A stretch of 36,154 bases of DNA from a virus (IMGVR_UViG_3300044939_000023:1-36154), one strand, 5' to 3'; counted from the stretch's first letter, positions 3,086 through 32,287 are shown. Notes: a model not told the origin generated them from the letters alone. Program-made: numbers and translations.

Positions 3086-3468
3086 AAGCTCAAAAAAACA
3101 CCTGGGGCGGCCCCCGCCCAGGAGCCGGGCGTCCAAAGGGGTCCGGCAAGGGGCGAAAGGTTGTAACCCGCAGCATCAATCTCCCACCTGAGACGTGGGC
3201 GGAAATAGACCGCCTGCGCGGGCCGCTTTCGCGGTCTAAGTGGATAAAAAAGCTAATTAAGCTAGGTGGCCTTCTGGCCGAGGAACACGCCCGACTCCAA
3301 GGCGTGCAACCCGTCATCGACTTTTCTGCCTTATTTGGAGCAGGCAAAGGCGAGGACTGGGAGGGCTTTGATGAGGCGTTAAAGCAATGGCGCCAAGGGA
3401 ACGCGGATAAACGCCGTTCCGCATTAGATGATGTTTCCAAGAAAGCTCACGATTTGGAATTGTATTAA
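3082..3468 (+). CDS. Ribbon-helix-helix DNA-binding protein, paralog 2 (128 aa)
   Basis: Residues 1-60 parallel the gene at 2320: a basic GGPRPGAGRPKGSGKG tail, then VTRSINLPPETWAEIDRLRG..SRSKWIKKLIK, the strand-helix-helix pattern of the MetJ/Arc fold. It adds a C-terminal extension (residues 65-128) that is acidic then basic and helical, and may mediate oligomerisation or bind a partner. It is probably a phage repressor or accessory DNA-binding protein. The start codon lies inside repeat copy 1 and there is no Shine-Dalgarno. The two paralogs flank the 90-aa and 69-aa genes, which suggests a local duplication. Confidence 0.75.
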   Translation: MKAQKNTWGGPRPGAGRPKGSGKGRKVVTRSINLPPETWAEIDRLRGPLSRSKWIKKLIKLGGLLAEEHARLQGVQPVIDFSALFGAGKGEDWEGFDEALKQWRQGNADKRRSALDDVSKKAHDLELY

Positions 3469-4127: not shown

Positions 4128-4505
4128 ATGAACGAACAACGCCGAAGCACCACTGAAGCCCTGTGGCAGCACATGCACCAGGAGCACGGGTTGATCCTCA
4201 TGGAATCCCAGCTTGATGAAATCATCCGCCTCGCCACTTGCGAGGCGCTCATCAATTTGATGGAGCAGCGGGGCTTTGTTGTCGGGCGTGGCACATACGC
4301 CCACCCCAACGGAGAAACCTTGCCAACCTGGGTGGTGACTAGGCCAACTGCCCCTGATTGGTCTGGCGTCTGGTCGCCGTGGGACGAGCGGCCAGACCAT
4401 ATTGAGGATGGAGAGGCCCAGGTATTGCTTGAGGTCTGCCGCTTGGCCATCTCTAAGTGGGATGAGGAAGCGCATCTGTTTGTGCAAGAAAATGAGCCAA
4501 AATAA
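4128..4505 (+). CDS. Unknown phage protein (125 aa)
   Basis: ATG 4128 is preceded by GGAAGA at 4115-4120 with 7-nt spacing, which favours it over the in-frame GTG at 4113. The product begins MNEQRRSTTEALWQHMHQEHG, is helical at both ends and has a beta-rich, Trp-rich middle (TLPTWVVTRPTAPDWSGVWSPWDERP). I do not recognise the family. It overlaps the methyltransferase start by 14 nt, so the two are probably co-translated; it might be a partner of that enzyme, but this rests on position only. Confidence 0.65.
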   Translation: MNEQRRSTTEALWQHMHQEHGLILMESQLDEIIRLATCEALINLMEQRGFVVGRGTYAHPNGETLPTWVVTRPTAPDWSGVWSPWDERPDHIEDGEAQVLLEVCRLAISKWDEEAHLFVQENEPK

Positions 4506-5136
4506 CCCCAACCGCTACGTTACTGAATACCTAGACCTTCGCCTGATGGACTGCATGGAACTCATGGCGCAATATCCCGATGGGCATTTCGATTGGGCCA
4601 TTACTGATCCCCCCTACGGGATTGGTGTAACAGCAATGAACATGGGTGGGAGAAAGACAGTCAGACCAGACAAAAAAAGCTGGGACGACACCCCCCCGCC
4701 GCCCGAATACTTCGCCGAATTGCGGCGGGTTTCACGCCATCAAATAATTTGGGGCGCCAACCACTTTTCTCTCCCGTGTTCACGTGGGTGGATTGTATGG
4801 GACAAGGGGGAATCTATGTATGGCAGAAGTTTCTCTGAGGTGGAACTGGCATGGACATCAATGGACATGTCGGCGCGCATATTTAAGGTTACGCCCAACC
4901 AGTCATTGCGCATCCACCCAACGCAAAAACCAGTCAAGCTCTACTCTTGGCTACTATCCAACTACGCCAAGCCCGGAGACAAAATCTTAGACACACACCT
5001 CGGCAGTGGCTCCATTGCTATTGCTTGCCACTACGCCAAGTTGCACCTAACGGCCTGCGAGATTGATCCTGATTATTTCCAAGCCGCTTGCGAGAGGATC
5101 GCCAGAGAAACCTCGCAGTCAGAGTTTAACTTCTAA
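4492..5136 (+). CDS. Beta-class DNA methyltransferase (N6-adenine or N4-cytosine)
   Basis: The 214-residue enzyme transfers a methyl group from S-adenosylmethionine to an amino group of adenine or cytosine in DNA. The catalytic DPPYG motif is at residues 39-43, and HPTQKP (142-147) and the SAM-binding loop (DTHLGSGS, about 167-174) follow it. That order (motif IV before motif I) defines the beta class. MSQNN at 4492 is chosen as start because the longer frame would read through the upstream gene. No restriction partner is seen, so it is likely a solitary phage methylase used to protect phage DNA or alter regulation. A truncated relative lies at 30698-30991, and both end in QSEF-type tails. 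Confidence 0.93.
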   Translation: MSQNNPNRYVTEYLDLRLMDCMELMAQYPDGHFDWAITDPPYGIGVTAMNMGGRKTVRPDKKSWDDTPPPPEYFAELRRVSRHQIIWGANHFSLPCSRGWIVWDKGESMYGRSFSEVELAWTSMDMSARIFKVTPNQSLRIHPTQKPVKLYSWLLSNYAKPGDKILDTHLGSGSIAIACHYAKLHLTACEIDPDYFQAACERIARETSQSEFNF

Positions 5137-6309: not shown

Positions 6310-6555
6310 ATGAAAAAATACCTAGAGCCTGCTGTCTTTGGCGCATTGATTGGAACCGCTTACTATGATCTTGATTGGGTTATTATCACAGTTGGCATTT
6401 TGCTGGTGTTCTTAATCGCCTTTATTCTTGCGCTTGCAGCTTTTTCCCTATTGACAGACCTTCTCGCTGAAGCTGTGTTTTTAGCTGATACAAACGATTC
6501 AACTGGTCGCGCTTCTCTTCGGGCGTCATCTCGCGGCTTGCCCAAATCTGATTGA
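6310..6555 (+). CDS. Small membrane protein (81 aa)
   Basis: GAGGAG precedes ATG 6310 with good spacing. Residues about 6-50 are strongly hydrophobic (VFGALIGTAYYDLDWVIITVGILLVFLIAFILALAAFSLL), enough for one or two membrane spans, followed by a hydrophilic tail. The last 134 bp run head-on into the 3' end of the giant minus-strand gene, so the tail (residues about 38-81) is encoded on both strands. That shared part makes the C-terminus less certain as a selected sequence. Function unknown; a role in membrane effects on the host is possible. Confidence 0.6.
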   Translation: MKKYLEPAVFGALIGTAYYDLDWVIITVGILLVFLIAFILALAAFSLLTDLLAEAVFLADTNDSTGRASLRASSRGLPKSD

Positions 6556-9500
6556 TCAACTTGTTGATATTTGTCAGATCTCTCTCATATTTGCCAAGCA
6601 CCCTGCTGCGCTCAAGCACCATAGGGTCCGCTTTCAAGAGACGATTGGTTTCTTCTAAGTCCATGGCCTCAGCAACCTGGCGCACGCGACGGGCAAGTGC
6701 CTGAGTTTCATCGGCCATCTTGTAGAATAAGTCAGGGTATTTAGTTCTTACATTTTGTGGGTTCTTGATGAATCGGCCAACACCCAAAACTCGATTTTCC
6801 CACCACTCCTGCTTAGGGGGCGGCGGCACGTCAGCAAAGTTCTTGTAGATAGCATCTGCAGCCATCATGGCGTAGGTGCCCATTGTCCCGAAATACCCTT
6901 CGACAAAATGCTGCACTTTTAGCGGACTAACTCCAAGCTTCTCGCCAATGCCTCTTGCTGTGAAGGGCGTGGTTGGATAATACCTTGCTTCCGGTGGCAA
7001 GGCCCGCACGTTGGCCGGCTCAATTTCACGCTCGAAGTAAGACTTCCAGCCGCCAGGGCCAGCATGCAATTCAAGGATCGGCTTGACGAGCTGTGGTGTT
7101 GGGTTAAGGCGCAGCATGTTGGTTGCTAGGTATCCTAAGCGGTAGGTTAACTCCCTCATATCCGCCTTGCCAAACTCACCCTCTGCCTTCTTCATGAAGG
7201 CTACCGTCAGGCGCTCTGGCACTGTTCCCAACATGGTTCCAATCTCAAATGGCTTGGGAATGAGGATCATGGTTCGATCCGCGTCTCCCTTATTGCCTGT
7301 GAGATAAACCCAATAGCGGTCCTTAATGTCGTCAGGCAGCTTGTCGTAGTCATCATCATCCCAGTTCCGCAATGCGAGCAATGTGGAGATTGCAAAAAGC
7401 ATGGAGCCGCGCGTCCAAAATGTTCTCGTATTCATAGCGCGGCCCATGCGGATTAAGCCCTGCATCCCCGCATTAAAGAATGGGGCAGTCTGCGCCAAAA
7501 ACTGAATCATCTTGCTACTACCAGAAAGCGAGAAGTCCGTGGTTGCCTCACGGTAAGCCCACGCCGCCTCCACTAAGTCGCCTGTCCTCTTGAGAGTGTT
7601 TAGGGCCACCTGCGTGCGGGTGGCACTTTCTGTGGCTTGGCCAAAAGTCTCGGCGGCTTGAAGCGTAGCGTTGCCAGCACGCCGCAAGGCCTCAAGAGCC
7701 TGCCAAAGTGCCTGCGGGTTGTCAGCCTTGATGATTCTAGAAATCCTTGGGCGCGTGACAGAAGTAATGCTTTCCCTAGTTACGCCTTCTTGGCGGAAAG
7801 TTGAAGGGTCGCCGGCCCCTGCCAAGAAAATGCGGTCTAGGTCGCTAATTTCGCCATCCCGCCCCATAAGCTTTTTTACCACTTGGCGGTTGCTGGCCCA
7901 CGCCAAAGCCCCACGCATTGTTTCTATAATAGGGACAGCCATATCCTTGTTTTGTAGCCACGATGCCATTGTGTCGCGCATGGCGTTTGCCCCCACAAAC
8001 TCCAAAGTAATCGTAATGCTGCTCTGGAAAAGTCTCCGCGCAAAGCGAGCCAGCGTCATAAAAGGATTCCCAGCCCCTATGGCCCCTCGGCTCATAGCCT
8101 CAAAAGAATCCCAAACCAGGTCATCCACAATGCGGCGATACTGAACCCTGCCGTCCTTCATAAAGGAAACAATGTCGCTCCCCTTTTGTGGACGCCCAAT
8201 AGCATAGATGTTCACCCAAACAGAGGGGTCAATATATTGCGAAAGCTCCTCCGGCACTCCCTGTTTCTCAAGCTCCCGCATGATGGCCCAGTTGGAGATG
8301 GCCACTTTTTCTTTTTGAGAAACAGGGACCATGAACTGCGGACCATCGGGCGCCATTTGTTCATTGATTTCATCCTTGCGGATTGCCAAAGCCTGCTCTG
8401 CCTGAACCCTTTGCCGCTCATAGTCTGGCTCACTAATCTCGCCATTCGCCAGCCTCTTCTTGAGGTCAGATTGAATCTTGGCAAATTCCGCCTCAGCCTC
8501 CTTAATTGCGGCATCCCTCTTCGCCTTAGCTTCCGCACTCTGCTTGGCGTTGATGGCGTCACTCATAGCCACTGCGCGGAGCATGACTATGTTTTTAATG
8601 CCCGCCACCATCATGTGGACCATGTTGCGCTCGATGTTTTCGTATAGATCATTCAACGGCTCTGTGCCCCCAAGGATTCGACGGATGCCGCTGCGCTGGT
8701 CTGCAAAGCCTCTCTTGGATGTCGGCGGCCCATACAACTCGCCTGCCATCGGATCAATTGCCCGATAGAACGGAACATACTGTGTGTGCAGCTTTTCAAG
8801 GTGATCGCGCAGCTCCGGCGAAACTAGTCCCGTGGCCACCGCAAAATCCATGACGCCACGCACGTTGGCCTGGTAATCGGCAAATGCTTCCTCAAAGCCT
8901 TCACGCTTCATGGCCAAAAGCGCCGCAATCTCAGCCTTGCTGAAAAGGGTTTCGCGGCGCGGGATTTCAAGCCGCGTCATGGCAGCCAAAGCAACAAGCT
9001 CTGCATCGGTATGCAGCTTGGCATCTTCTGCTTTCAGCCCAATAATCTCAAGGTGCTGATCGCGACGAAGCTTTTGCATGTCATTGAAAATATTGGCTGC
9101 GCGAGAACTAGATGCCAAAAGTGAATTAAGCTCGGCTTCAGCAATGGCCTTGAGTTCGCTGGCCCTCCGCCCGGCCATATATCCCATGAAGTCTCTTAGC
9201 CCATCCTCACCATATTTGTCGCGGATGTCCTTAAATATCATGGCAACACCACGCACCCGGTTATCCACCTGGAAAGCTCCGTCCTTCATCACGGGGATGC
9301 CAAGCCACAAGGCTTCGTGCGCCATGGAATAAGCATCAGTGGCAACTTGCGCAAACTTGGCTGCACTCTCTTTCCCAGAAAGAAGCTCGCGTCCGCGCCC
9401 ACGCACAATCTGGTTGAAAGTCTTTTCCATCTCGTGCAGGGCATACTGCTTGTTAAATGCCTTCTGAACCACAAGCCACTTGATGCGGTTCCAGCCAGCA

Positions 9501-12500
9501 TCTTTAATGGCCTCTATATTGGCGCGCAAGCTGTCGAAGGCTTCTTCGACGTGTGTTTTCTGCCGCCGCATCTTGCCCAAGGCGTATTCTTTGGGGTTAG
9601 TGCGTCCTCTTGTGGCCCTTCTTGCTGCGTCAAGCCTCGGTAGAATTGTAATGGGGATGTCCAGAGGAATGATTTGCCCTTTGTATTTCCTGAAGTTGTC
9701 TGGCTTTACGTCGGCCAAGGCAACGCCATCAGATTGGCGAAACCACGCCCTTGCCGTCCCCACAGGCTCAAAGCCCTCGCTTTTTAGCCAATCAGAAATC
9801 TCCTGAATGGTAGGCTCATCCCCAGGCACAAAATCCTGCTTGACCACCAAGGCAATGGTCCCATCTGGCCGCTCGGCAGCGCCCTCAAACGTGACTTCCG
9901 GCGCAACACCGCCAAAGACATGGTTGAATGTGTCCCACCGCTCCAGATATTCCGAAGGCGTCGCATTCCCAGTAACAACCCTAGGGATGCCGTTGATGGT
10001 CGCTACTGGGACTGCCCGATAGCCTGAAGGCACCCCTTGGCTATTGCTGGTGAACTTGTAAACTTCCCGCCCACGAATCTGGACAACGTGCTCAAACCCA
10101 CTCCCCGAAGGCTTCTTGGGCCAAGGCAATTTCTTGATTCGCCCATCCTCCATCATCTGGCGAATGGCATATTCACCCAAAATTATTTGCGCTTCATGGT
10201 CGCCTTCATCAGCGCCAAGCTCTTTTGAAATTCTGGCGAGTTCTCGGGACAGCTTCGCAAAAGGCGTTTCACTTCCTCTTGCCGCCTCTGGTGTTCCGGG
10301 TGTTCCAGATATGTCTGTCCTTGCTTCAGTTTCAGCAGTTTTGTTTTCATTTTTTGCTTTTCCTTTGCGCCCACGCGAGGCGCGGATGTTGGGGCTTTCC
10401 GAAAATATCCCAGTATTTGGATCGCCTGGCAACGGCCCTTTTTGCCCACCCTCAAAAATTGCTTCATCTCCAGCCAGCTTAATATTGTTGGAGTAAAAAA
10501 CGCCCCAAGTTGGCACATCCCCAAATTTGGGGAATATTTCCTCGCTCATTTTAATGGCGTCATAGCCCATTTCTCTGAGGATCGTAGAAAACCCAGGATT
10601 TTCGACCAAGCCCCAAACATTTTTAATCTTGCTCCAAGCATCTTCAATTGTGGCGTTTGGATTATTTTGTTGTTCTGCGCGTAACAATATTTTAGCTTGC
10701 AACTCAATCAGGTCCGCAGTTTTCTCAAACTCATCCTTTGTGGTCTGGCTGTATTTGTCAGCGGCCCCACTTCTTCCGTAATCAATGACCGCCTTAATCT
10801 CGTTGTAATTCTTGGCGTCCAAAAACTTCCTAGCGCGCATGAACAATGGCAGGGAAACGATTGGCGAATTGAGCTGACTTTGCGTTTGATTGGAGATGAC
10901 TCTCCCGTGCCGCTCATCTTCAGCTAAGAAGTAAAGGCCATTATTATCTGGCGCAAGAGACTTTAGCTCTGGCACCGTGGTTGAATGATAAAAAACCTTT
11001 GGCTCGCCAGTCAGTTGGTCAAGAATAACATTCCCCTCACCAATACGCCAGTCACCGCCAGCCCACTCCATAAAGTTCGGGGTGCGAACAGCCCGCCACT
11101 GAGATTCCGTAAGCAAGCTTGGACCACCGTAAGGATTAAGCAGGCGTCCATTGGCTACCCATGTATAATATGCCGTCGTATTGCCTTGGAAAACAGGATG
11201 ATCTTGTGCGACAAGGCCCGCCTCATCACGGACAAGAGGGACTTCTAAAAGCTGCTTGCGGGCATCCCATGCGGCATCCACGAACTCATTTGCCGTCATA
11301 TTCTTTGAGTTCTTCATCCGCAAGGAAGTATCGCCAAATGCGTTCTGAATGACGGCCATGCGATTCTTCAGCACGCCCAGAATTGCACGCAATCTAGGGC
11401 TTTTATTTTCCATTACTTTTCTAAATGCGCCATGAAATTCCCACAGGATTTTGGCAAGGCCATCATTTAGCTCCTCAATGCTCATCTCCCCATAAAGATC
11501 GGACAGCCCCGGTATGCTGGGTATATCTAAGCCCTTGCGCAAAAACATCTTTTTGACGTTATCCGGCAACAAGGCAAACACTTCCTTGTCCGACCATGCA
11601 AGTTCTGATTTGCTTTTAGGTTCGCCATTAGACTTATACCCAAGCGCGCCACTCATGCTAACGCGATAAGGCACAGGGACGTATGAGAATGAATCATCAA
11701 CAATGATGTTGCTCAAATTATCCCCGCCACCATCAAGGTTCTGCAGAAGCAGGTCCACCCAATACCCACTGCGAAGCGCAGCTTTCAAGGAATCGAGCTT
11801 AAATTTTGCCTCGCTTTCTGGAAGTTGCTCCAAGGATTTAATGTATTCCCCTAATGTTGGGCCTTCAATGTATTGTTTCTCAATCCATTCTGCGCGCACC
11901 AACTCATTATCAAACCACTCCGTATCACTGATTGGCCTTACAATGTTCCATTCGCCGCTTATATTTGAGCCGTATTTGCTAATAAGTTTTACTGATGGGG
12001 CAAGCACCCCAATATCTTTCACGTCATTAAAAAGTGTTTGCCACAAGGCATGAATTTTGTGGGCAAAAAATTCTTCAAGCCGTTGTTCTAGGCCGCGTCC
12101 GCGTTTAAGGACAACTTTTGTGCCATATTTATTTATCGCCAAAATGGCCCCATTGTCGCCTTGTAGCTTGGCAATGAATTTGTATCCAACCGCCTCAAGA
12201 TCGGCAAATTTGTCCATCAGCTCTTTGTCAGAAACTCTACCACGAGAGGCCCGTCTTTGAGCGGATGGCAGCGCCATTCTTTCCTGAAGCGATTGGCGAG
12301 ACATCTCCTCGGCCAACTTAGGGGCGTTCTCCACGGCTTTCAAAGCCTCATCAATGGCGGCAAGACGTTCGCGTAGCTCAGGGAAGTTGCCCCGTATTTT
12401 GGCCATCCAAGTTTTCAGGAGATTGGCCAAGCGATAGAAAAACTGCTTCAGAGTAGGCATTCCAGCCAGATCAAAAGCCTCTGGCGCAGAAAATTGGCCA

Positions 12501-15500
12501 CGAGAATGCGCGCTCCATTCGGCGGCAAACTCAGGGAAGAAATTGTCAATCCAAAGGACGTCACCCACGCTGCCGCTATCGGCATTGGCAAAGCCAATAA
12601 TCTCGCCAGACGAGTTGCGTAATGTCAAAACACGGGATGCCTGAAGGTATCTGGCGGCGAATTGCTCCGCCTTGGTTATGCCCATTTCATCAATGAGCCT
12701 ACGACCATGTTCGGCCACAAACTCCTCATAAGACATCTCAGTGCCAGACTCCTCCCAAAGCTTCATCATCACCTGGTCGTGCGCAAGGTGATGCATTTCT
12801 TCGGCAAGAACGGCCCTAACGTATTCCTCGAAGGCTTTTTCTTTTTCCTTGGCCCCCATGTTGCCAAGTTCATTAAAGGTTTCAGCCAAGCGGAACAGGT
12901 TGGCAAAAACGACGTTCGACTCCCCAACCTCGACAAACATGGCGGCAGGATCAGTGGGATCGTTAAGCCAGGCAATATCAATGCCTTCTGGCAGCAAAAC
13001 TCTGGCAAGGCGCTGGATGACGTTGCGCACCTTGAGTTGCGTGTCATTGGCCATGCTCCATTGCAACCCTTCGATCTTCCTCCTGCCTTTACTGGCAAAG
13101 CGGGCAAGCTCATCACGCCTTTCTTTCCATTCCTGAAGAATGTCAGCAACAAAAGGCTGCTGCTCCCTGTTGGTCTCAATGAACTCCCAAATCGCCTGCA
13201 TGTCAGACTGGCGAAGCTCGTCGTTGACTAAATTGATGAGCGCATTCTTGATTGTTGCAGGAATAGAGGAATTATTGATTTTCTCTTTAGTCTGCGCTGC
13301 CACCTTCTCTAGCTCGTCATTAATCTCTTGACGAATCTTTGCCCTTTCTGGGCTTTCGGGAGTGGCAATGGAATTGTCCAGCGTTTCGGCCCCACTTTCT
13401 ATTGGCTCGCCATCCTCTGTGAACTGTTGAATGGGCGGCTCGTTAATGTCATCGCCTTCAGTCCCAACTTCTTCTTCACCAACGCCCAAGCCATCTTCAA
13501 CATTGGTATCCCCATCGCTTTGATTGGATGCTTTTTCTACAGGCTGGGCATCTAGGCTAATCTTGGGCGCATTGGCTTCACTAGCAGCATACTTGCGCAG
13601 TGTTGGCTTCATGTAGTTCACCCACGCAAATCCGCGTCCCTGCTCGTTCTTTGCTTCCAATGAGCCGTATTGCTCGATCCAAAGCAAGGCTCGGCGCGCG
13701 GCCTGGTAGGCTGCATCATCAATGGCCTGCAACTTGGTTGCCTCATCAAACCACGTGAACGTAGTGGGGTTTGATGCAATGCTGTCGGCAAATTCACGCG
13801 CTTTTAAGAGAAATGCCACAAGCTCTTGCTTTTGCGCTTCGGCAAGCTTGATAGTTCTCTGCCCTTTGCCATGTTGTTTAATTTTCCCATCGAGAATGTC
13901 GGCAATCTTGGATGTTGCGGCCTTTTCGTTGGCCTGCTTTGTTTTCCTGGGGCTGCGCTCGCCCCTCGCCTTGCTTGGGGATGGGGTCTCAATTTCGGGT
14001 GTCAGTGGCTTGGGCGCCTGTTTCTTCTTATCGACAGCTTGCTCTTTCGGTCCCGCGACTGGCGTGGTTACGCTTAATCCAGTTCTTGGCTGGGGGCGTT
14101 CTTCTGTTGCTTGTTGTGCTTGCCCTTGCGTTTCCTGGCTGGCGTCACTCGCCACCGGCACCCCTCTTCGTGCAACTCCTCGATCTCCTCTGGAGTCAGA
14201 TTCTTGAGGTTTCTGAGTTTGTTGAGGTAATGATGACGTTCCGGCTTGCTCATTGGTCTCGACTCTTTCTGCTTGTGAAACTGGTTGCTGGGGTTCCTGC
14301 TGATTTGAGGCTGCTGCTTCGGCGGCAGCCTGAGATTGTGGGGCTCGGAAAATTTTTTGTATTGCCGGGGCTGGGGACCAATCCCCACCACGAATCCTCT
14401 TTAGGCCATCCACAGGCTTTTCGCCCCAGTTTTGGGGGTTAGCCATCCGCCCCTTCGATTTGTCATACACCCATCCATTTTTAAGCAAGTCTTGGACAGC
14501 CGACATAACTTCATCTGTGTTATACACGCCAAACATCCGCATTCTTAAATCAGGAGCATATTCAGAAGCTATGGCGTCGGCTAAGGTGCCCAAAATTTTA
14601 TCCAAATCATTCGTAGTGACCCACCCAGTCATGGGTGGCTTGGGCTTTTGAGCTTGTGGTTGTTGAGCCGGAGAATGAGATTGGGGGGCCAATGGAGCGG
14701 GTGCAGCAGTGCTAGCTATCCCCTCATCATTTTGCTCGGATCGTGGTTGAGGTGCTGGGGCCTGTTCTTCTGCTGGTTTAGCAACTGGGGAAGATTCTTG
14801 TGCAACAGGTTGAGGTGGTGCAACAGGTCGTGCCGCCGCGCTTTGTTTTTCTTCTTTTGCTTCTTGAGGGCTTTGCGTTGCCGACGGTTCTTGTGGCACA
14901 ACGGGTTGCGCTGCTTCTGAGGCATCCGCCTCTTCTTCTGCAATAGGCGCAACTAAGCCCAAGTCGGCATTGGTTGCCATCTCTTGCTTCTTCTGATCTT
15001 TAGCCTGAATTGGCTGGGAGATGGCTTCTTGTTGGTTGGCCTGCGCACCTTGTTCTTCCGCCTTTTGCTGAAAGGCGGCTTGCGTAGCCGGACCTACCGC
15101 TGAGGCCGCTTGGGCCGCCTCACTGGCCGCACGGCGCTTGGCTGAAGCCTTCTCCTCAGCCGCCGCCCAGTCGGGGTTGTTGGACAAAATTTCATAGCGG
15201 GCAGTCCCCATCTTCAAGATAAACTCTTGATCGCTCCAGCCCGCCTCTTCTTCTGAACGGCGACGCAGTTCTTCTTCAAGGCTTTTGTCTAGTTCCGATT
15301 GAGTGAAATTCCCGCTAGCGCTTACCTCAATTTGACGCGCTGCCGCGATCCGGGCCAAGTCATCAACACTTAATTCCCTTAATGCTGCGACACGCTTGAG
15401 CGGAGAAAGCGATTCAAGAGATTCGACGGTGACGCCAGACGACTGCGCCAACTTAGACTGGCGCACCATGTCTTTTGAAATTTGAAATTGGAACTCGGCT

Positions 15501-16888
15501 GGAAGGTCTTTGAGTTGGACGGGATTGCCATTTTTATCGACAGCCACTACGGTTTCGGCGTTTGCATTTGCCCAAAGGTAAGCAGCTACGTTATCATCCG
15601 AAGTGGTTAATGCTTTGTATTGCTTGCGCCAATCCCTCTCCGACCGCATCTGATTAAGACCAGAGGCCAATCCAGAAAGTGCCCCACCAACCACAAAGCT
15701 TTGGCCAACATCATCGGCAATTGGTTTGCCCAATACAAGGTTTTGCCCCATTTGCGAAATGGCTTCGCTAGTGCCCCCCGCAAGGCCCTGCGCCCCAATC
15801 TCAGCAAAAGGACGCACCGCGCCGCGCACGCCTTTGGCTAGCCTTGCAAACGGTAGTAGTGACTCCGCCAACTCCGATCCAAACTCAATGCTGGTCGTAG
15901 CCTTTGCCGCTATATCGGCATAAGAAATGGCATCATTTAGATTGGCGCCATCCTGGTATTTTCGCTGCAGCGCCTCATCCCATCCGCTGTTGTAGCTCCG
16001 TGCTACCTGCACGGTAAGGTAAGACGGCATAGTGACAATGGCGGCAGGCGGGACAACATACCCAACAAACATGGGGGTCATGACGCCAGCCTCATTGCCA
16101 AGTGAGTATAATGTCTCTGCGCCCTTCCCAAATCTCTGCTGCGGGCGGCCAAATGCGTTGATTTGAAGTTCCTGGATTTTTTGTTCGGCAAGCCGCCTTT
16201 TTTCTTCTTCATTGCCGAACGCACGCTGTTGAAGCCCATTCAACAACTGCGGCAGATCGCCCCAAGTGCCCAAGCCTTGGCTTAACCCAACACCAAAGGC
16301 ATCATACCACTTCATTTCCCCAAAAGTCTTGTCGATGTTTTGTTGTGTCTTTTGGGTGCTTTCGTAATTGGCCTGGTAAAACTTGGAAAGCGAAGCGAAA
16401 TCGCTGTCTGGCAAGACGCCAGCCCTCCGGGCCTGATCCAATGCCTTAAATGGATCGTCTCCTATAACACGGAAGCGCTTGACAACACTGTTCCCCCCTT
16501 TGCTTTCTTCGCCTGGGGGAAGAGGCGTATATTGGAACAATAGCTTTTCCTTGCCATTAAAGATGGAAGAGGCCACAGCATAAGCAGGCGACAGACTGTC
16601 AGCGTCGTAAATCAGTTTGCCGCCACTTGTGGGAATCCCATTCTTATAAGCCTCAAACATGCCCTTGGGGTCTTGCCCGCTTGCCGCTGAATTAACAAGG
16701 TCAAGGGCAGCAGAACGCGCCCTAAATTCGCCCAGCCGAAGTTGGTAATCTCCTCCGGCGCTATTTAGTCTCTCGCCCTGGCCGTTGGACAAGGCCGTTG
16801 GCTTAAGCCAATCCGGCATAGGCGTAGCCATGCTGCTGCCATTATCCTCGCTGTCTAAAAAATTGTTGGGAATTTCTTGTTGTTTCAT
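6422..16888 (-). CDS. Giant polyvalent ejection-type protein (3488 aa) with kinase-like and ADP-ribosyltransferase-like regions
   Basis: This gene fills 29% of the window. Seen in order: a hydrophilic N-terminus, a Gly/Ala-rich hydrophobic segment (about 265-420) that could insert in membranes, a Gln/Pro/Ala-rich linker (about 590-960) with a small folded insert (about 750-835), a helical region with EEMHHLAHD (1363-1371) that recalls a zincin helix but lacks the first His, a kinase-like region (about 1550-1860; K1595, D1719, D1723, N1724), an ADP-ribosyltransferase-like region (about 1940-2135; EPKVFYHST with H1968, GLYFLAEDE, ILREMGYDAI), a second kinase-like region (about 2205-2415; DVKPDNF from D2393, LD at D2410), and a helical C-terminus with FFNAGMQGL at 3137, like LPD38. 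Such layouts define the 'polyvalent proteins' described by Iyer, Aravind and colleagues. Inference: it is packaged, ejected with the DNA and modifies host targets. Start is coupled to the upstream gene by ATGA. Confidence 0.85.
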   Translation of the reverse strand: MKQQEIPNNFLDSEDNGSSMATPMPDWLKPTALSNGQGERLNSAGGDYQLRLGEFRARSAALDLVNSAASGQDPKGMFEAYKNGIPTSGGKLIYDADSLSPAYAVASSIFNGKEKLLFQYTPLPPGEESKGGNSVVKRFRVIGDDPFKALDQARRAGVLPDSDFASLSKFYQANYESTQKTQQNIDKTFGEMKWYDAFGVGLSQGLGTWGDLPQLLNGLQQRAFGNEEEKRRLAEQKIQELQINAFGRPQQRFGKGAETLYSLGNEAGVMTPMFVGYVVPPAAIVTMPSYLTVQVARSYNSGWDEALQRKYQDGANLNDAISYADIAAKATTSIEFGSELAESLLPFARLAKGVRGAVRPFAEIGAQGLAGGTSEAISQMGQNLVLGKPIADDVGQSFVVGGALSGLASGLNQMRSERDWRKQYKALTTSDDNVAAYLWANANAETVVAVDKNGNPVQLKDLPAEFQFQISKDMVRQSKLAQSSGVTVESLESLSPLKRVAALRELSVDDLARIAAARQIEVSASGNFTQSELDKSLEEELRRRSEEEAGWSDQEFILKMGTARYEILSNNPDWAAAEEKASAKRRAASEAAQAASAVGPATQAAFQQKAEEQGAQANQQEAISQPIQAKDQKKQEMATNADLGLVAPIAEEEADASEAAQPVVPQEPSATQSPQEAKEEKQSAAARPVAPPQPVAQESSPVAKPAEEQAPAPQPRSEQNDEGIASTAAPAPLAPQSHSPAQQPQAQKPKPPMTGWVTTNDLDKILGTLADAIASEYAPDLRMRMFGVYNTDEVMSAVQDLLKNGWVYDKSKGRMANPQNWGEKPVDGLKRIRGGDWSPAPAIQKIFRAPQSQAAAEAAASNQQEPQQPVSQAERVETNEQAGTSSLPQQTQKPQESDSRGDRGVARRGVPVASDASQETQGQAQQATEERPQPRTGLSVTTPVAGPKEQAVDKKKQAPKPLTPEIETPSPSKARGERSPRKTKQANEKAATSKIADILDGKIKQHGKGQRTIKLAEAQKQELVAFLLKAREFADSIASNPTTFTWFDEATKLQAIDDAAYQAARRALLWIEQYGSLEAKNEQGRGFAWVNYMKPTLRKYAASEANAPKISLDAQPVEKASNQSDGDTNVEDGLGVGEEEVGTEGDDINEPPIQQFTEDGEPIESGAETLDNSIATPESPERAKIRQEINDELEKVAAQTKEKINNSSIPATIKNALINLVNDELRQSDMQAIWEFIETNREQQPFVADILQEWKERRDELARFASKGRRKIEGLQWSMANDTQLKVRNVIQRLARVLLPEGIDIAWLNDPTDPAAMFVEVGESNVVFANLFRLAETFNELGNMGAKEKEKAFEEYVRAVLAEEMHHLAHDQVMMKLWEESGTEMSYEEFVAEHGRRLIDEMGITKAEQFAARYLQASRVLTLRNSSGEIIGFANADSGSVGDVLWIDNFFPEFAAEWSAHSRGQFSAPEAFDLAGMPTLKQFFYRLANLLKTWMAKIRGNFPELRERLAAIDEALKAVENAPKLAEEMSRQSLQERMALPSAQRRASRGRVSDKELMDKFADLEAVGYKFIAKLQGDNGAILAINKYGTKVVLKRGRGLEQRLEEFFAHKIHALWQTLFNDVKDIGVLAPSVKLISKYGSNISGEWNIVRPISDTEWFDNELVRAEWIEKQYIEGPTLGEYIKSLEQLPESEAKFKLDSLKAALRSGYWVDLLLQNLDGGGDNLSNIIVDDSFSYVPVPYRVSMSGALGYKSNGEPKSKSELAWSDKEVFALLPDNVKKMFLRKGLDIPSIPGLSDLYGEMSIEELNDGLAKILWEFHGAFRKVMENKSPRLRAILGVLKNRMAVIQNAFGDTSLRMKNSKNMTANEFVDAAWDARKQLLEVPLVRDEAGLVAQDHPVFQGNTTAYYTWVANGRLLNPYGGPSLLTESQWRAVRTPNFMEWAGGDWRIGEGNVILDQLTGEPKVFYHSTTVPELKSLAPDNNGLYFLAEDERHGRVISNQTQSQLNSPIVSLPLFMRARKFLDAKNYNEIKAVIDYGRSGAADKYSQTTKDEFEKTADLIELQAKILLRAEQQNNPNATIEDAWSKIKNVWGLVENPGFSTILREMGYDAIKMSEEIFPKFGDVPTWGVFYSNNIKLAGDEAIFEGGQKGPLPGDPNTGIFSESPNIRASRGRKGKAKNENKTAETEARTDISGTPGTPEAARGSETPFAKLSRELARISKELGADEGDHEAQIILGEYAIRQMMEDGRIKKLPWPKKPSGSGFEHVVQIRGREVYKFTSNSQGVPSGYRAVPVATINGIPRVVTGNATPSEYLERWDTFNHVFGGVAPEVTFEGAAERPDGTIALVVKQDFVPGDEPTIQEISDWLKSEGFEPVGTARAWFRQSDGVALADVKPDNFRKYKGQIIPLDIPITILPRLDAARRATRGRTNPKEYALGKMRRQKTHVEEAFDSLRANIEAIKDAGWNRIKWLVVQKAFNKQYALHEMEKTFNQIVRGRGRELLSGKESAAKFAQVATDAYSMAHEALWLGIPVMKDGAFQVDNRVRGVAMIFKDIRDKYGEDGLRDFMGYMAGRRASELKAIAEAELNSLLASSSRAANIFNDMQKLRRDQHLEIIGLKAEDAKLHTDAELVALAAMTRLEIPRRETLFSKAEIAALLAMKREGFEEAFADYQANVRGVMDFAVATGLVSPELRDHLEKLHTQYVPFYRAIDPMAGELYGPPTSKRGFADQRSGIRRILGGTEPLNDLYENIERNMVHMMVAGIKNIVMLRAVAMSDAINAKQSAEAKAKRDAAIKEAEAEFAKIQSDLKKRLANGEISEPDYERQRVQAEQALAIRKDEINEQMAPDGPQFMVPVSQKEKVAISNWAIMRELEKQGVPEELSQYIDPSVWVNIYAIGRPQKGSDIVSFMKDGRVQYRRIVDDLVWDSFEAMSRGAIGAGNPFMTLARFARRLFQSSITITLEFVGANAMRDTMASWLQNKDMAVPIIETMRGALAWASNRQVVKKLMGRDGEISDLDRIFLAGAGDPSTFRQEGVTRESITSVTRPRISRIIKADNPQALWQALEALRRAGNATLQAAETFGQATESATRTQVALNTLKRTGDLVEAAWAYREATTDFSLSGSSKMIQFLAQTAPFFNAGMQGLIRMGRAMNTRTFWTRGSMLFAISTLLALRNWDDDDYDKLPDDIKDRYWVYLTGNKGDADRTMILIPKPFEIGTMLGTVPERLTVAFMKKAEGEFGKADMRELTYRLGYLATNMLRLNPTPQLVKPILELHAGPGGWKSYFEREIEPANVRALPPEARYYPTTPFTARGIGEKLGVSPLKVQHFVEGYFGTMGTYAMMAADAIYKNFADVPPPPKQEWWENRVLGVGRFIKNPQNVRTKYPDLFYKMADETQALARRVRQVAEAMDLEETNRLLKADPMVLERSRVLGKYERDLTNINKLINQIWASREMTPEEKRDQLNRLYQLKTQLQREGLSIGKKLQAQE

Positions 16889-18432
16889 CGAATTGAACTG
16901 ACAATGGCGTTAAATTCGTTCCAATCAATCTGATTTTCGTCAAATGGCCATCTTGACACTGGCCTGATGGCCGGCCCCTTGGCCATGCCCAGGCCGCCAA
17001 GCCCTGTGACATTTTTGATGGTTTGGGCAACGTCGAATTGGGATTCGGCCATCTTCTCGTCCAAAGACTTGCTCATGGACAATGGCGGGGCAACCGACTT
17101 CATGAATCGCTTGGCCGCTTCGATGCGCTCTTGGGCTGGCATTTTTTGAAGCTCTCTGAATTGCTCTGGTGTAGTGTTAGCACGGATAGCTTCCGCCAAG
17201 GCGGAGGCTGCTGCAATCTTGCCTCCCACAAAAAAGGCATGGTTGTTTTTCCCGCGCTCCAGCAAGTCTCTTGCCTGTTGGAATTTGGAGGCCAAGGAAT
17301 CCGATGAGATTTCCGTGGCCATTGGACTTTCTTCAGGGATAAATTTTGGTCCTGCTGGCCTGCTAAGCCCACGAATAACTTGGCCATTGGAGGCCTCCTC
17401 ATCTGATAAAGGCTCGTCCTGCAACGGCTGGTTTACCGTCTGTGACACCTCCACCGATGGGGATGCGCTTGGTTGAGAGTCTGCACCAGCTTTGTTTTGT
17501 GTAGGAATTGGTTGCCCGGTAAGTTCGTCAATGCGATTATAGCCCAATATTTCCTTTCTCTTGTTTAGGTCTGAATGCAGCTTGATCCTCCTATCCTCAA
17601 GCTCCATGATGTTTTTGTTGATAGCATTGATTCTTTCATCCTTGAACAGTGAAGATGCCGCTGGGCCAATGTTCGGATTTTTCTCCTGCATTTCCCTTTG
17701 AATCGCATCGCGCTGTTGGTAATACTTTTTTAGTTGGGCGTTGGTAGCCCTCAAATCTTCTTCGAGATTGTAGTGCTCAAGCTGTGTATCGGCCTTCTTT
17801 TGCGCCATCAGCATTTGCCGTTGCCGCTGTTCCTTCTCTAACTCTTGGGCGTATCTGATGGCCGTAGTGTCGTCTAGCTTGTCAACATCATTCACCCCAT
17901 TTTGGGAAAGATACTCTCGTGCAGCAATACCGGCTTCGGCCTTCTGGTTGCTCAAACGAAGAGCCTGCCTTTGGCTCTCCTCGTTGAGCAGGCCATGTTT
18001 CCGCGATATTTTCATGTCGGCCAACTTCTGAGTAAGATGGGGTGGCAAATTTGAGGGGACTTGGATAGAGTCAATGTCACTAAGCGTCGCATTGGAAACG
18101 CTAATGATAAAGTCATTGACAATTGGCTGATACTTAAGCTCCTCAGCCACCTTTTGAGCGGCCAATTTCTGAGATTCAATTTGGCTGCGGCGGTATTCTG
18201 TTTCCGCCTCAATTTCTGCCATCCTCAGCGGCAGCATAAGCTCTTCTAGCTGTTGGCGGCGCTTTTGTTCTTCCATCTGAAGCATCATTTGACGCTCTTG
18301 CATGGAAAGACGGCGGTTGTCGTCAAAAGCACCCTTGTATCCCAAAACCTGTCTTGTTATAAGCGCTGGGTCAGGCATATCAAACTGCCTGTCATTCCCA
18401 ATCATGCTGACGAGTTGCTGGCCTAGCGACAT
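16885..18432 (-). CDS. Coiled-coil ejection/internal virion protein (515 aa)
   Basis: Residues about 40-290 are charged and heptad-like (MQERQMMLQMEEQKRRQQLEELMLPLRMAEIEAETEYRRSQ is 41 residues of continuous helix, cited here by its parts near residue 45-85), giving a long coiled coil. A Pro/Ser-rich linker (about 315-370) leads to a helical C-terminus. No enzyme motif is visible. A good AGGAGA site precedes ATG 18432 and the stop overlaps the giant gene as ATGA. By position between the tail genes and the giant protein, and by composition, it resembles internal virion proteins that assemble with the giant ejection protein, as T7 gp14-gp16 do. That assignment is inference. Confidence 0.7.
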   Translation of the reverse strand: MSLGQQLVSMIGNDRQFDMPDPALITRQVLGYKGAFDDNRRLSMQERQMMLQMEEQKRRQQLEELMLPLRMAEIEAETEYRRSQIESQKLAAQKVAEELKYQPIVNDFIISVSNATLSDIDSIQVPSNLPPHLTQKLADMKISRKHGLLNEESQRQALRLSNQKAEAGIAAREYLSQNGVNDVDKLDDTTAIRYAQELEKEQRQRQMLMAQKKADTQLEHYNLEEDLRATNAQLKKYYQQRDAIQREMQEKNPNIGPAASSLFKDERINAINKNIMELEDRRIKLHSDLNKRKEILGYNRIDELTGQPIPTQNKAGADSQPSASPSVEVSQTVNQPLQDEPLSDEEASNGQVIRGLSRPAGPKFIPEESPMATEISSDSLASKFQQARDLLERGKNNHAFFVGGKIAAASALAEAIRANTTPEQFRELQKMPAQERIEAAKRFMKSVAPPLSMSKSLDEKMAESQFDVAQTIKNVTGLGGLGMAKGPAIRPVSRWPFDENQIDWNEFNAIVSSIR

Positions 18433-30992: not shown

Positions 30993-31140
30993 GTGAACTA
31001 CCCCCTGCTTACGCAGGGAGCTTCTCGCTTCATAGCAACCTTTGGTCGCTCCACGAGCGCAGTCTGTCGGTTCCCGGCAGACAAAATTTTGTAGCCTCTT
31101 TGGGCAATGATAATTGCGCCGTTGTGATCGGCGTTGAGGG
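30993..31140 (-). ncRNA. Predicted omega/reRNA of the TnpB element
   Basis: In IS200/IS605 elements the TnpB guide RNA comes from the 3' end of tnpB and the right end, with the guide taken from the flanking DNA. The right-end hairpin at 31001-31020 and TAGTTCAC mark the scaffold's 3' end here. The guide would then be the first bases beyond 30993, inside the methyltransferase fragment. The 5' boundary given is approximate. Confidence 0.4.
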
Positions 31141-32287
31141 TTGTTCCGCAAGCCTGGCAGACAAACTCGGCTTGGGACCGTCTATTTAGAGGGTTAACGT
31201 GGTGGCAATGCGAGCACTCCTGGCTGGAATAAGCGGCGGATACGAGCACAAAATACTTGCCGCGACGTGGGGCTTTGTAGGCCGCATACTGGCGAATAAG
31301 CCCCAGGCCCCAACGCAGCAAGGAAGCATTGAGTCCGGCCTTTGCCGCTGCGCCATTGCGTTCGTAACCCTTGCCGTCTTCTTTTGGGCGGGGTTCAGGG
31401 GCAGCGGTCATGTCGCTTAGGCGCAAATTCTCAAAGGCGATGGCTTTGTGCGGGGTATGGCACAACGCATGGGAAGCCTTGTGGGCAAAGTCTCGCCGGA
31501 TGCGTCTTTGCTTGGCTTTGAGGCGGGCAATACGCTTTCGGGTCTTTTCTCTGCGGTGGGAACGCTTACGCTGCCGCGCCATTTTGCGCTGCAATCGCCT
31601 TGCCTTTTTCTCGCATTGGAAGTAGGAGCGCGTGGCTTCTGGCGTTGGATGGATGACAACTCCCTCAGAAGTTGTGACACTGCGAGCAACACCCAAGTCC
31701 ACGCCCAAAACATGTCCCTCGTTTTCGATGTGCGCGGGAAGTTTGGGAGCCTCAATTCCGTCGTCGTAACTAAACCCAGCGAACCATCTTCCATCAGCTT
31801 CCACGCTGACGACAAGCATGTTGGGAGTCTCAAATTCCCGATGAGCTTTCCAGCGCACAAAACCTAAATCCTGCTTTCTTGAACCAATGCGCAGGCATCC
31901 GTCTTGGATCGTAAAAAGCTCTTGGGTGAGCACGAGGCTTTGCCTCCCACCTCTGTTTTTTATAACTGGTGCGCCACCCCCTTGGGACGCAGCCAGAACG
32001 GCTTTGGCGTAACGATAGCATCCGTTGCGAAAAATCTGCGAAGGGACTTCCTTCATCCAGGGATTGTTCTTACGGAAATGGGAATACGCCTGATTGAAGA
32101 GGCTGATGTTTTTTGGATCGGGGTCGGTCCAAGAGGGAGAAAGAATAGCACGGTTGCGCAGCCATGCCTCATAGCGATATTCGTCAATCTTCGCGTTATA
32201 GACAAAGCGTTGTGCGCCAATCCACCGCCGCAAGACGCTTTCTTGCTCGGCATTGGGATACAGGCGAAACCTTCTTCCCACTTGCAT
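30998..32287 (-). CDS. tnpB: TnpB RNA-guided endonuclease (IS605 OrfB family)
   Basis: The 429-residue protein keeps all catalytic residues: RuvC Asp in GVDLGVARS (D197), Glu in IAFENLRL (E286), Asp in NADHNGA (D387), and a four-Cys zinc ribbon (C358, C361, C377, C380). The N-terminus MQVGRRFRLYPNAEQE and the Arg/Lys-rich helix (about 225-270) are typical. TnpB cuts DNA matched by the guide RNA made from its own 3' end. The stop TAG lies inside the right-end hairpin region, as usual. The intact active site suggests recent arrival or selection for function. Confidence 0.95.
   Translation of the reverse strand: MQVGRRFRLYPNAEQESVLRRWIGAQRFVYNAKIDEYRYEAWLRNRAILSPSWTDPDPKNISLFNQAYSHFRKNNPWMKEVPSQIFRNGCYRYAKAVLAASQGGGAPVIKNRGGRQSLVLTQELFTIQDGCLRIGSRKQDLGFVRWKAHREFETPNMLVVSVEADGRWFAGFSYDDGIEAPKLPAHIENEGHVLGVDLGVARSVTTSEGVVIHPTPEATRSYFQCEKKARRLQRKMARQRKRSHRREKTRKRIARLKAKQRRIRRDFAHKASHALCHTPHKAIAFENLRLSDMTAAPEPRPKEDGKGYERNGAAAKAGLNASLLRWGLGLIRQYAAYKAPRRGKYFVLVSAAYSSQECSHCHHVNPLNRRSQAEFVCQACGTTLNADHNGAIIIAQRGYKILSAGNRQTALVERPKVAMKREAPCVSRG

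Follow-up and report, generated by a model that had tools for sequence, protein, structure and literature searches.

A giant polyvalent phage protein combining a predicted ADP-ribosyltransferase, a Kinase-PolyVal domain and a probable pseudokinase with an LPD38 C-terminus

What is a single phage protein of 3488 residues for, and how many of the enzymatic domains that its sequence suggests are likely to be active? The question is raised by a virus record, a stretch of 36,154 nucleotides (the window), for which an original prediction had proposed two kinase-like regions around an ADP-ribosyltransferase (ART) in one ejection-type protein with an LPD38-like C-terminus. The motifs listed there are present within one residue (K1595, D1719, D1723/N1724, YHST with H1968, GLYFL at 1984 and GYDAI at 2108), and DVKPDNF from D2393, D2410 and PFFNAGMQG at 3136 are likewise in place. 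The reading frame runs without interruption from an ATG at 16888 to 6422 on the minus strand, its start shares 4 bp (ATGA) with the stop of an upstream 515-aa gene, and its sequence recurs without a difference (100% identity) in another contig of the virus (IMGVR 3300044995_000110, 59,104 bp).

6422 to 16888, minus strand: polyvalent giant protein gene, 3488 aa (open reading frame; the same in the second contig)
16885 to 18432, minus strand: upstream gene, 515 aa, Q/E-rich (position and size as JC1 gp68)

With its 70-bp terminal repeat, the 59,104-bp contig has the appearance of a whole genome of about 59 kb that is circularly permuted; the giant gene occupies about 18% of it. A terminase large subunit (E 6e-10), a DnaB helicase and a sliding-clamp-like protein are also encoded, whereas no portal was identified by profile for this phage. 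Four structural-region proteins, three of them encoded upstream of the giant gene within the window, were searched against 50,697 phage records without a match. That these proteins lack relatives even though terminase, helicase and clamp are recognisable suggests that the phage lineage is poorly sampled, and it makes synteny unusable as evidence. Within the giant protein, the following regions were distinguished:

15209 to 16888, minus strand: residues 1-560, N-terminal region with one hydrophobic stretch at 267-285
13379 to 15208, minus strand: residues 561-1170, low-complexity linker rich in Q/E/P/A (by composition)
12479 to 12961, minus strand: residues 1310-1470, VLAEEMHH region, zincin-helix-like, first His replaced by Glu (by motif only)
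11234 to 12211, minus strand: residues 1560-1885, first kinase-like region (K1), NWD-type HipA/PI3K-like kinase fold (profile, AlphaFold2, Foldseek)
10469 to 11113, minus strand: residues 1926-2140, predicted ART-PolyVal-type ADP-ribosyltransferase with lead-in TPNFMEWAGGDW (triad and alignment of relatives)
9614 to 10102, minus strand: residues 2263-2425, second kinase (K2), Kinase-PolyVal, PF18762 (profile and catalytic residues)
6425 to 9100, minus strand: residues 2597-3488, conserved C-terminal chassis of LPD38 phage giants
7457 to 7483, minus strand: residues 3136-3144, PFFNAGMQG motif (chassis alignment)
6803 to 7357, minus strand: residues 3178-3362, LPD38 domain, PF18857 (profile match)

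The assignment to the polyvalent-type giants with an LPD38 C-terminus was borne out, with LPD38 at 105.3 bits (curated cut-off 27, E 5.6e-30) and Kinase-PolyVal also over its cut-off. Over its full length, the C-terminal part of ~900 residues can be aligned with giant proteins from phages of Vibrio, Aeromonas and Achromobacter at 25-32% identity, and the P, F, N, A, Q and G of PFFNAGMQG are invariant in the chassis alignment (n = 4 sequences). Scanning viral contigs with this alignment yielded at least 564 relatives, mostly in ORFs of 1,900-4,100 aa, and a scan of bacterial genomes yielded 141, the best 80 of which came mostly from Gamma- and Betaproteobacteria. Among the chassis relatives, residues 1-1530 had no counterpart and the effector segments had very few; thus, the alignments indicate that in LPD38 giants the chassis is constant and the cargo varies.

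LPD38 is listed as confined to phage-type polyvalent proteins (PMC5512222), and JC1 gp69 (4,515 aa), with LPD38 at 4195-4401, was detected by mass spectrometry in virions purified on CsCl, through 51 unique peptides (PMC9144972). The present protein resembles this DarB-like giant (JC1 gp69/Bcep22 gp75) in having LPD38 near the C-terminus of a protein of more than 3000 aa and a gene of ~510 aa before it: the virion-associated gp68 (510 aa) lies directly upstream of gp69, as the 515-aa gene does here with similar size, and a sequence match between the two was not found. Unlike the present protein, gp69 has methylase/helicase-type, LPD3 and lytic transglycosylase domains, and ART or kinase domains are not listed for it (PMC9144972). 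By analogy, the giant protein is probably carried in the virion and delivered into a bacterium; the argument is one of analogy because the chassis is 25-32% identical to its relatives and the structural neighbours have no recognisable relatives.

Profile searches against the polyvalent families, which had been proposed together with the prediction, brought LPD38 and Kinase-PolyVal over their cut-offs but left ART-PolyVal (PF18760) below, at 14.3 bits against 31.2 with model positions 3-135 of 140 aligned. The ART-like region nevertheless holds: a profile built from the ART domains of relatives matched at about 1e-10, and the H-Y-D triad (H1968, Y1986, D2110) is intact and aligned with relatives that pass the Pfam cut-off, ART-PolyVal lying above cut-off in 12 of 50 LPD38 and related records. 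H-Y-D is the ART configuration described by Iyer et al. (PMC5512222). The alignment with relatives extends to the lead-in TPNFMEWAGGDW and to the tail VFYSNNIKLA, which matches aFrPEQIKSA. Judged by these alignments, residues ~1926-2140 are a real, divergent ART with predicted activity. A close ART-PolyVal domain was also observed in the crAss-like phage cr271_1; its frame measures 2750 aa and neighbours a very long gene whose annotation reads nuclear pore complex-like.

K2 scored 33.6 bits with the Kinase-PolyVal profile in the whole protein and 38.7 bits as a fragment (cut-off 27). Aligned with 22 relatives, it keeps all near-invariant catalytic positions, namely E2266, K2278, Q2351, D2393, N2398 and D2410. 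By profile and alignment, K2 is a genuine Kinase-PolyVal domain, for which catalysis is predicted. The domain was absent from all 50 records of the LPD38 set. In a six-frame search, in which the window served as positive control and was detected, Kinase-PolyVal occurred in 20 of 388 genomes from the phylum of a Verrucomicrobia MAG as against 0 of 369 Gammaproteobacteria, hinting at a verrucomicrobial host. Phmmer matched K2 to Verrucomicrobia-group Kinase-PolyVal proteins down to 1.6e-13; these share its catalytic residues and some contain two such domains per protein, but their frames are about 200-1700 aa. Two Kinase-PolyVal domains per open frame were seen at four loci from this phylum.

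K1 by itself gave no matches in Pfam (including HipA_C and HipA_2), PHROGs, NCBIfam, PDB sequences or phage records. Single-protein scans of viral and genome contigs for relatives of K1 or K2 returned the same virus only, and direct PDB sequence searches with the whole protein, K1, K2 and the helical region gave nothing meaningful. The K1 segment NLDGGGDNLSNIIVDD...YRVSMSGALGYKSNGEPK resembles a putative phage motif, NWDVVG...DN, and this resemblance was tested by a pattern scan of viral contigs. At least 120 stretches were found, so that the family is larger than sampled here; 80 of them were made into loci. The motif lay in an open frame in all 80, and in nearly all it was followed by a D-G-G...R-A-Q-G...K block, giving the signature NWDVVG...DN...DxGG...RAQG..K. 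The word NWDVVG was found in none of the papers searched. Pfam reaches the family through weak HipA_C, HipA_2 and APH matches (HipA_C in 8 of 62 relatives, best E 1.3e-4), PHROGs essentially not at all. By sequence, NWD is thus a kinase-fold family that is widespread in phages and modelled neither by Pfam nor by PHROGs.

Against the NWD family profile K1 scored 32.7 bits (best of 200 shuffles, 5.6), and reciprocal phmmer with K1 alone as query recovered NWD members at 1e-5; the shuffled controls and the reciprocal match exclude motif chance as the explanation of all kinase calls. AlphaFold2 modelled K1 together with 61 relatives at pLDDT 80.8 and pTM 0.79 (K1 alone, pLDDT 38.2). The comparison with known folds that had been suggested for this region was run on K1, and all 50 listed PDB matches in Foldseek were kinases or kinase-fold pseudokinases, among them PI4KII-alpha, VPS34, BTK and the JAK2 pseudokinase (best E 6.7e-5, probability 0.97-1.00, TM-scores 0.29-0.46 by query). 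Among viral models, phage giants came closest, including a portal protein (E 2e-9) and an ADP-ribosyltransferase (E 2e-8). Sequence homology and predicted structure together support a kinase fold of the NWD family for K1, with low global TM-scores. The family resembles H. pylori CtkA and HipA-type kinases in its kinase fold and its weak HipA_C, HipA_2, APH and CtkA similarity, but all of these sequence matches are below cut-off, and K1 lacks both the DFG-type Asp and a toxin-antitoxin context.

K1 retains K1595, E1606, N1717, D1719 and N1727. Regarding the motifs assigned to it originally, D1719 stands, whereas the catalytic-loop Asn is N1727 by family register and not N1724. The NWD catalytic set, which includes the D of DxGG, is incomplete in K1: S1744 takes the place of an Asp found in 60 of 62 family members and S1746 that of a Gly found in 61 of 62, both positions lying outside the search pattern, while S1726 replaces an Asp found in 61 of 62, a conservation that is partly by construction since this position is within the pattern. 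In the AlphaFold2 model, S1744 comes after the hairpin's second strand, at the place expected for the DFG-type Asp. Both contigs agree on this active site; they may stem from one sample. Because the metal-binding Asp and two other family-conserved residues are lost, K1 is probably a pseudokinase. Two kinases are therefore upheld at the level of fold (K1 by model, K2 by profile), but activity is doubtful for K1 (S1744), and the three-enzyme arsenal did not survive in the form proposed.

Could K1 be active all the same? Kinases that work without the canonical Asp exist, K1 has kept its Lys-Glu pair, the catalytic D1719 and N1727, and additional acidic residues lie in the loop past the catalytic Asp. 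With a substituted metal site (e.g., D1723, D1731 or D1732), the protein would combine an ART with two kinases that differ in their targets. We consider this unlikely, as serines occupy 1744, 1726 and 1746, where 60-61 of 62 family members keep other residues, and conservation at 1744 and 1746 was not forced by the search pattern.

With ART, Kinase-PolyVal, the kinase-fold K1 and LPD38, a single chain holds at least two domains whose activities differ in kind. This agrees with the polyvalent proteins of Iyer et al. (2017; PMC5512222), giant phage proteins that unite ART, Kinase-PolyVal and LPD domains of unlike activities. The kinase section of that paper treats one monophyletic truncated kinase group, and the present protein adds a class not found there, a degenerate NWD-type HipA/PI3K-like kinase. 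T4 Alt sets the precedent for an ART delivered by the virion, and the T7 protein kinase that for a phage kinase acting on proteins of the host (both cited in PMC5512222); however, they are separate single-activity proteins, and the active site of Alt is R-S-E instead of H-Y-D. That the combination is uncommon proved correct for the exact set, since NWD kinase, ART, Kinase-PolyVal and LPD38 occurred together in no other record examined, but its pieces have precedents: ART with LPD38 (12 of 50), tandem Kinase-PolyVal, NWD with LPD38 and probably NWD with ART. No pairing of K2 with NWD, ART or LPD38 was seen in the other records examined. The giant protein is a new arrangement within a known kind, the polyvalent protein, plus a member of an unmodelled virion-associated kinase family.

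The reading that we lean towards, with somewhat better than even confidence, is an ejection-type polyvalent protein. As homology suggests, the C-terminal LPD38 chassis would put it into the virion, and it would enter the bacterium together with the phage DNA. There, judging from family and intact catalytic residues, the ART domain would use NAD+ to ADP-ribosylate host targets and K2 would act on host targets by phosphorylation, both helping takeover. K1, having probably lost normal phosphotransfer, would more likely bind nucleotide or a partner and may serve the neighbouring ART and K2 as a scaffold, in targeting or in regulation. The result is a testable domain map for a probably injected protein with which the phage may alter host proteins through two chemistries at once.

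The same domains might instead work in the cell that produces the phage, or on virion proteins packaged alongside, in self-modification, assembly or processing, and not in the next host. The giant gene does end a gene run that includes tail-like genes, and processing before packaging is known for some polyvalent proteins (PMC5512222). However, ART and kinase domains vary strongly among relatives while the chassis is constant, a pattern expected of host-directed effectors, so we hold this alternative to be distinctly improbable.

A broader proposal follows from the NWD family and extends the ejection-type reading preferred above. In 15 of 50 records (13 over cut-off) MuF was found in an ORF of exactly the length of the NWD ORF, and in 3 of 50 a portal; one family member joins NWD, NUDIX and LPD38 in one protein, and NWD and ART are probably joined in two (one over cut-off in sum). 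These fusions to MuF, portal and LPD38 support virion delivery for the NWD family in general. It is possible, and put forward tentatively, that NWD represents a large unmodelled kinase family in virion head and ejection proteins that is delivered at infection, and that its member here is a pseudokinase steering or switching on ART and Kinase-PolyVal as an allosteric module. Annotation pipelines that rely on Pfam and PHROGs now miss a common virion-fused kinase family; should its members prove active, kinases that enter with the DNA of phages would be much commoner than recognised.

No relatives were found for residues 1-560. Residues 1310-1470 contain VLAEEMHHLAHD followed by FAAEWSAH and have the look of a zincin helix, which is not statistically supported; in place of the HExxH with downstream Glu of polyvalent zincin metallopeptidases, EEMHH stands at 1363-1367. 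A peptidase domain at this position was rejected, as a small zincin profile scored no higher than shuffles. A zincin-like segment minus its first His, together with a degenerate K1, would fit a protein that served mainly in structural ejection or DNA transfer and whose ART and kinase segments were decaying passengers. Given that K2 and ART retain all family-conserved catalytic residues in a long intact ORF, we regard this as very unlikely, and least likely among the alternatives to an ejection-type effector.

An Rfam scan of the window returned no RNA families. At 30998-32287 (minus strand), the window encodes an IS605 OrfB/TnpB-type protein with Cas12f1-like TNB, OrfB_IS605 and HTH domains. 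Close to the end of the giant gene, at 4402-5136 (plus strand), lies a small N6/N4 DNA methyltransferase-like ORF, possibly a fragment of a longer enzyme.
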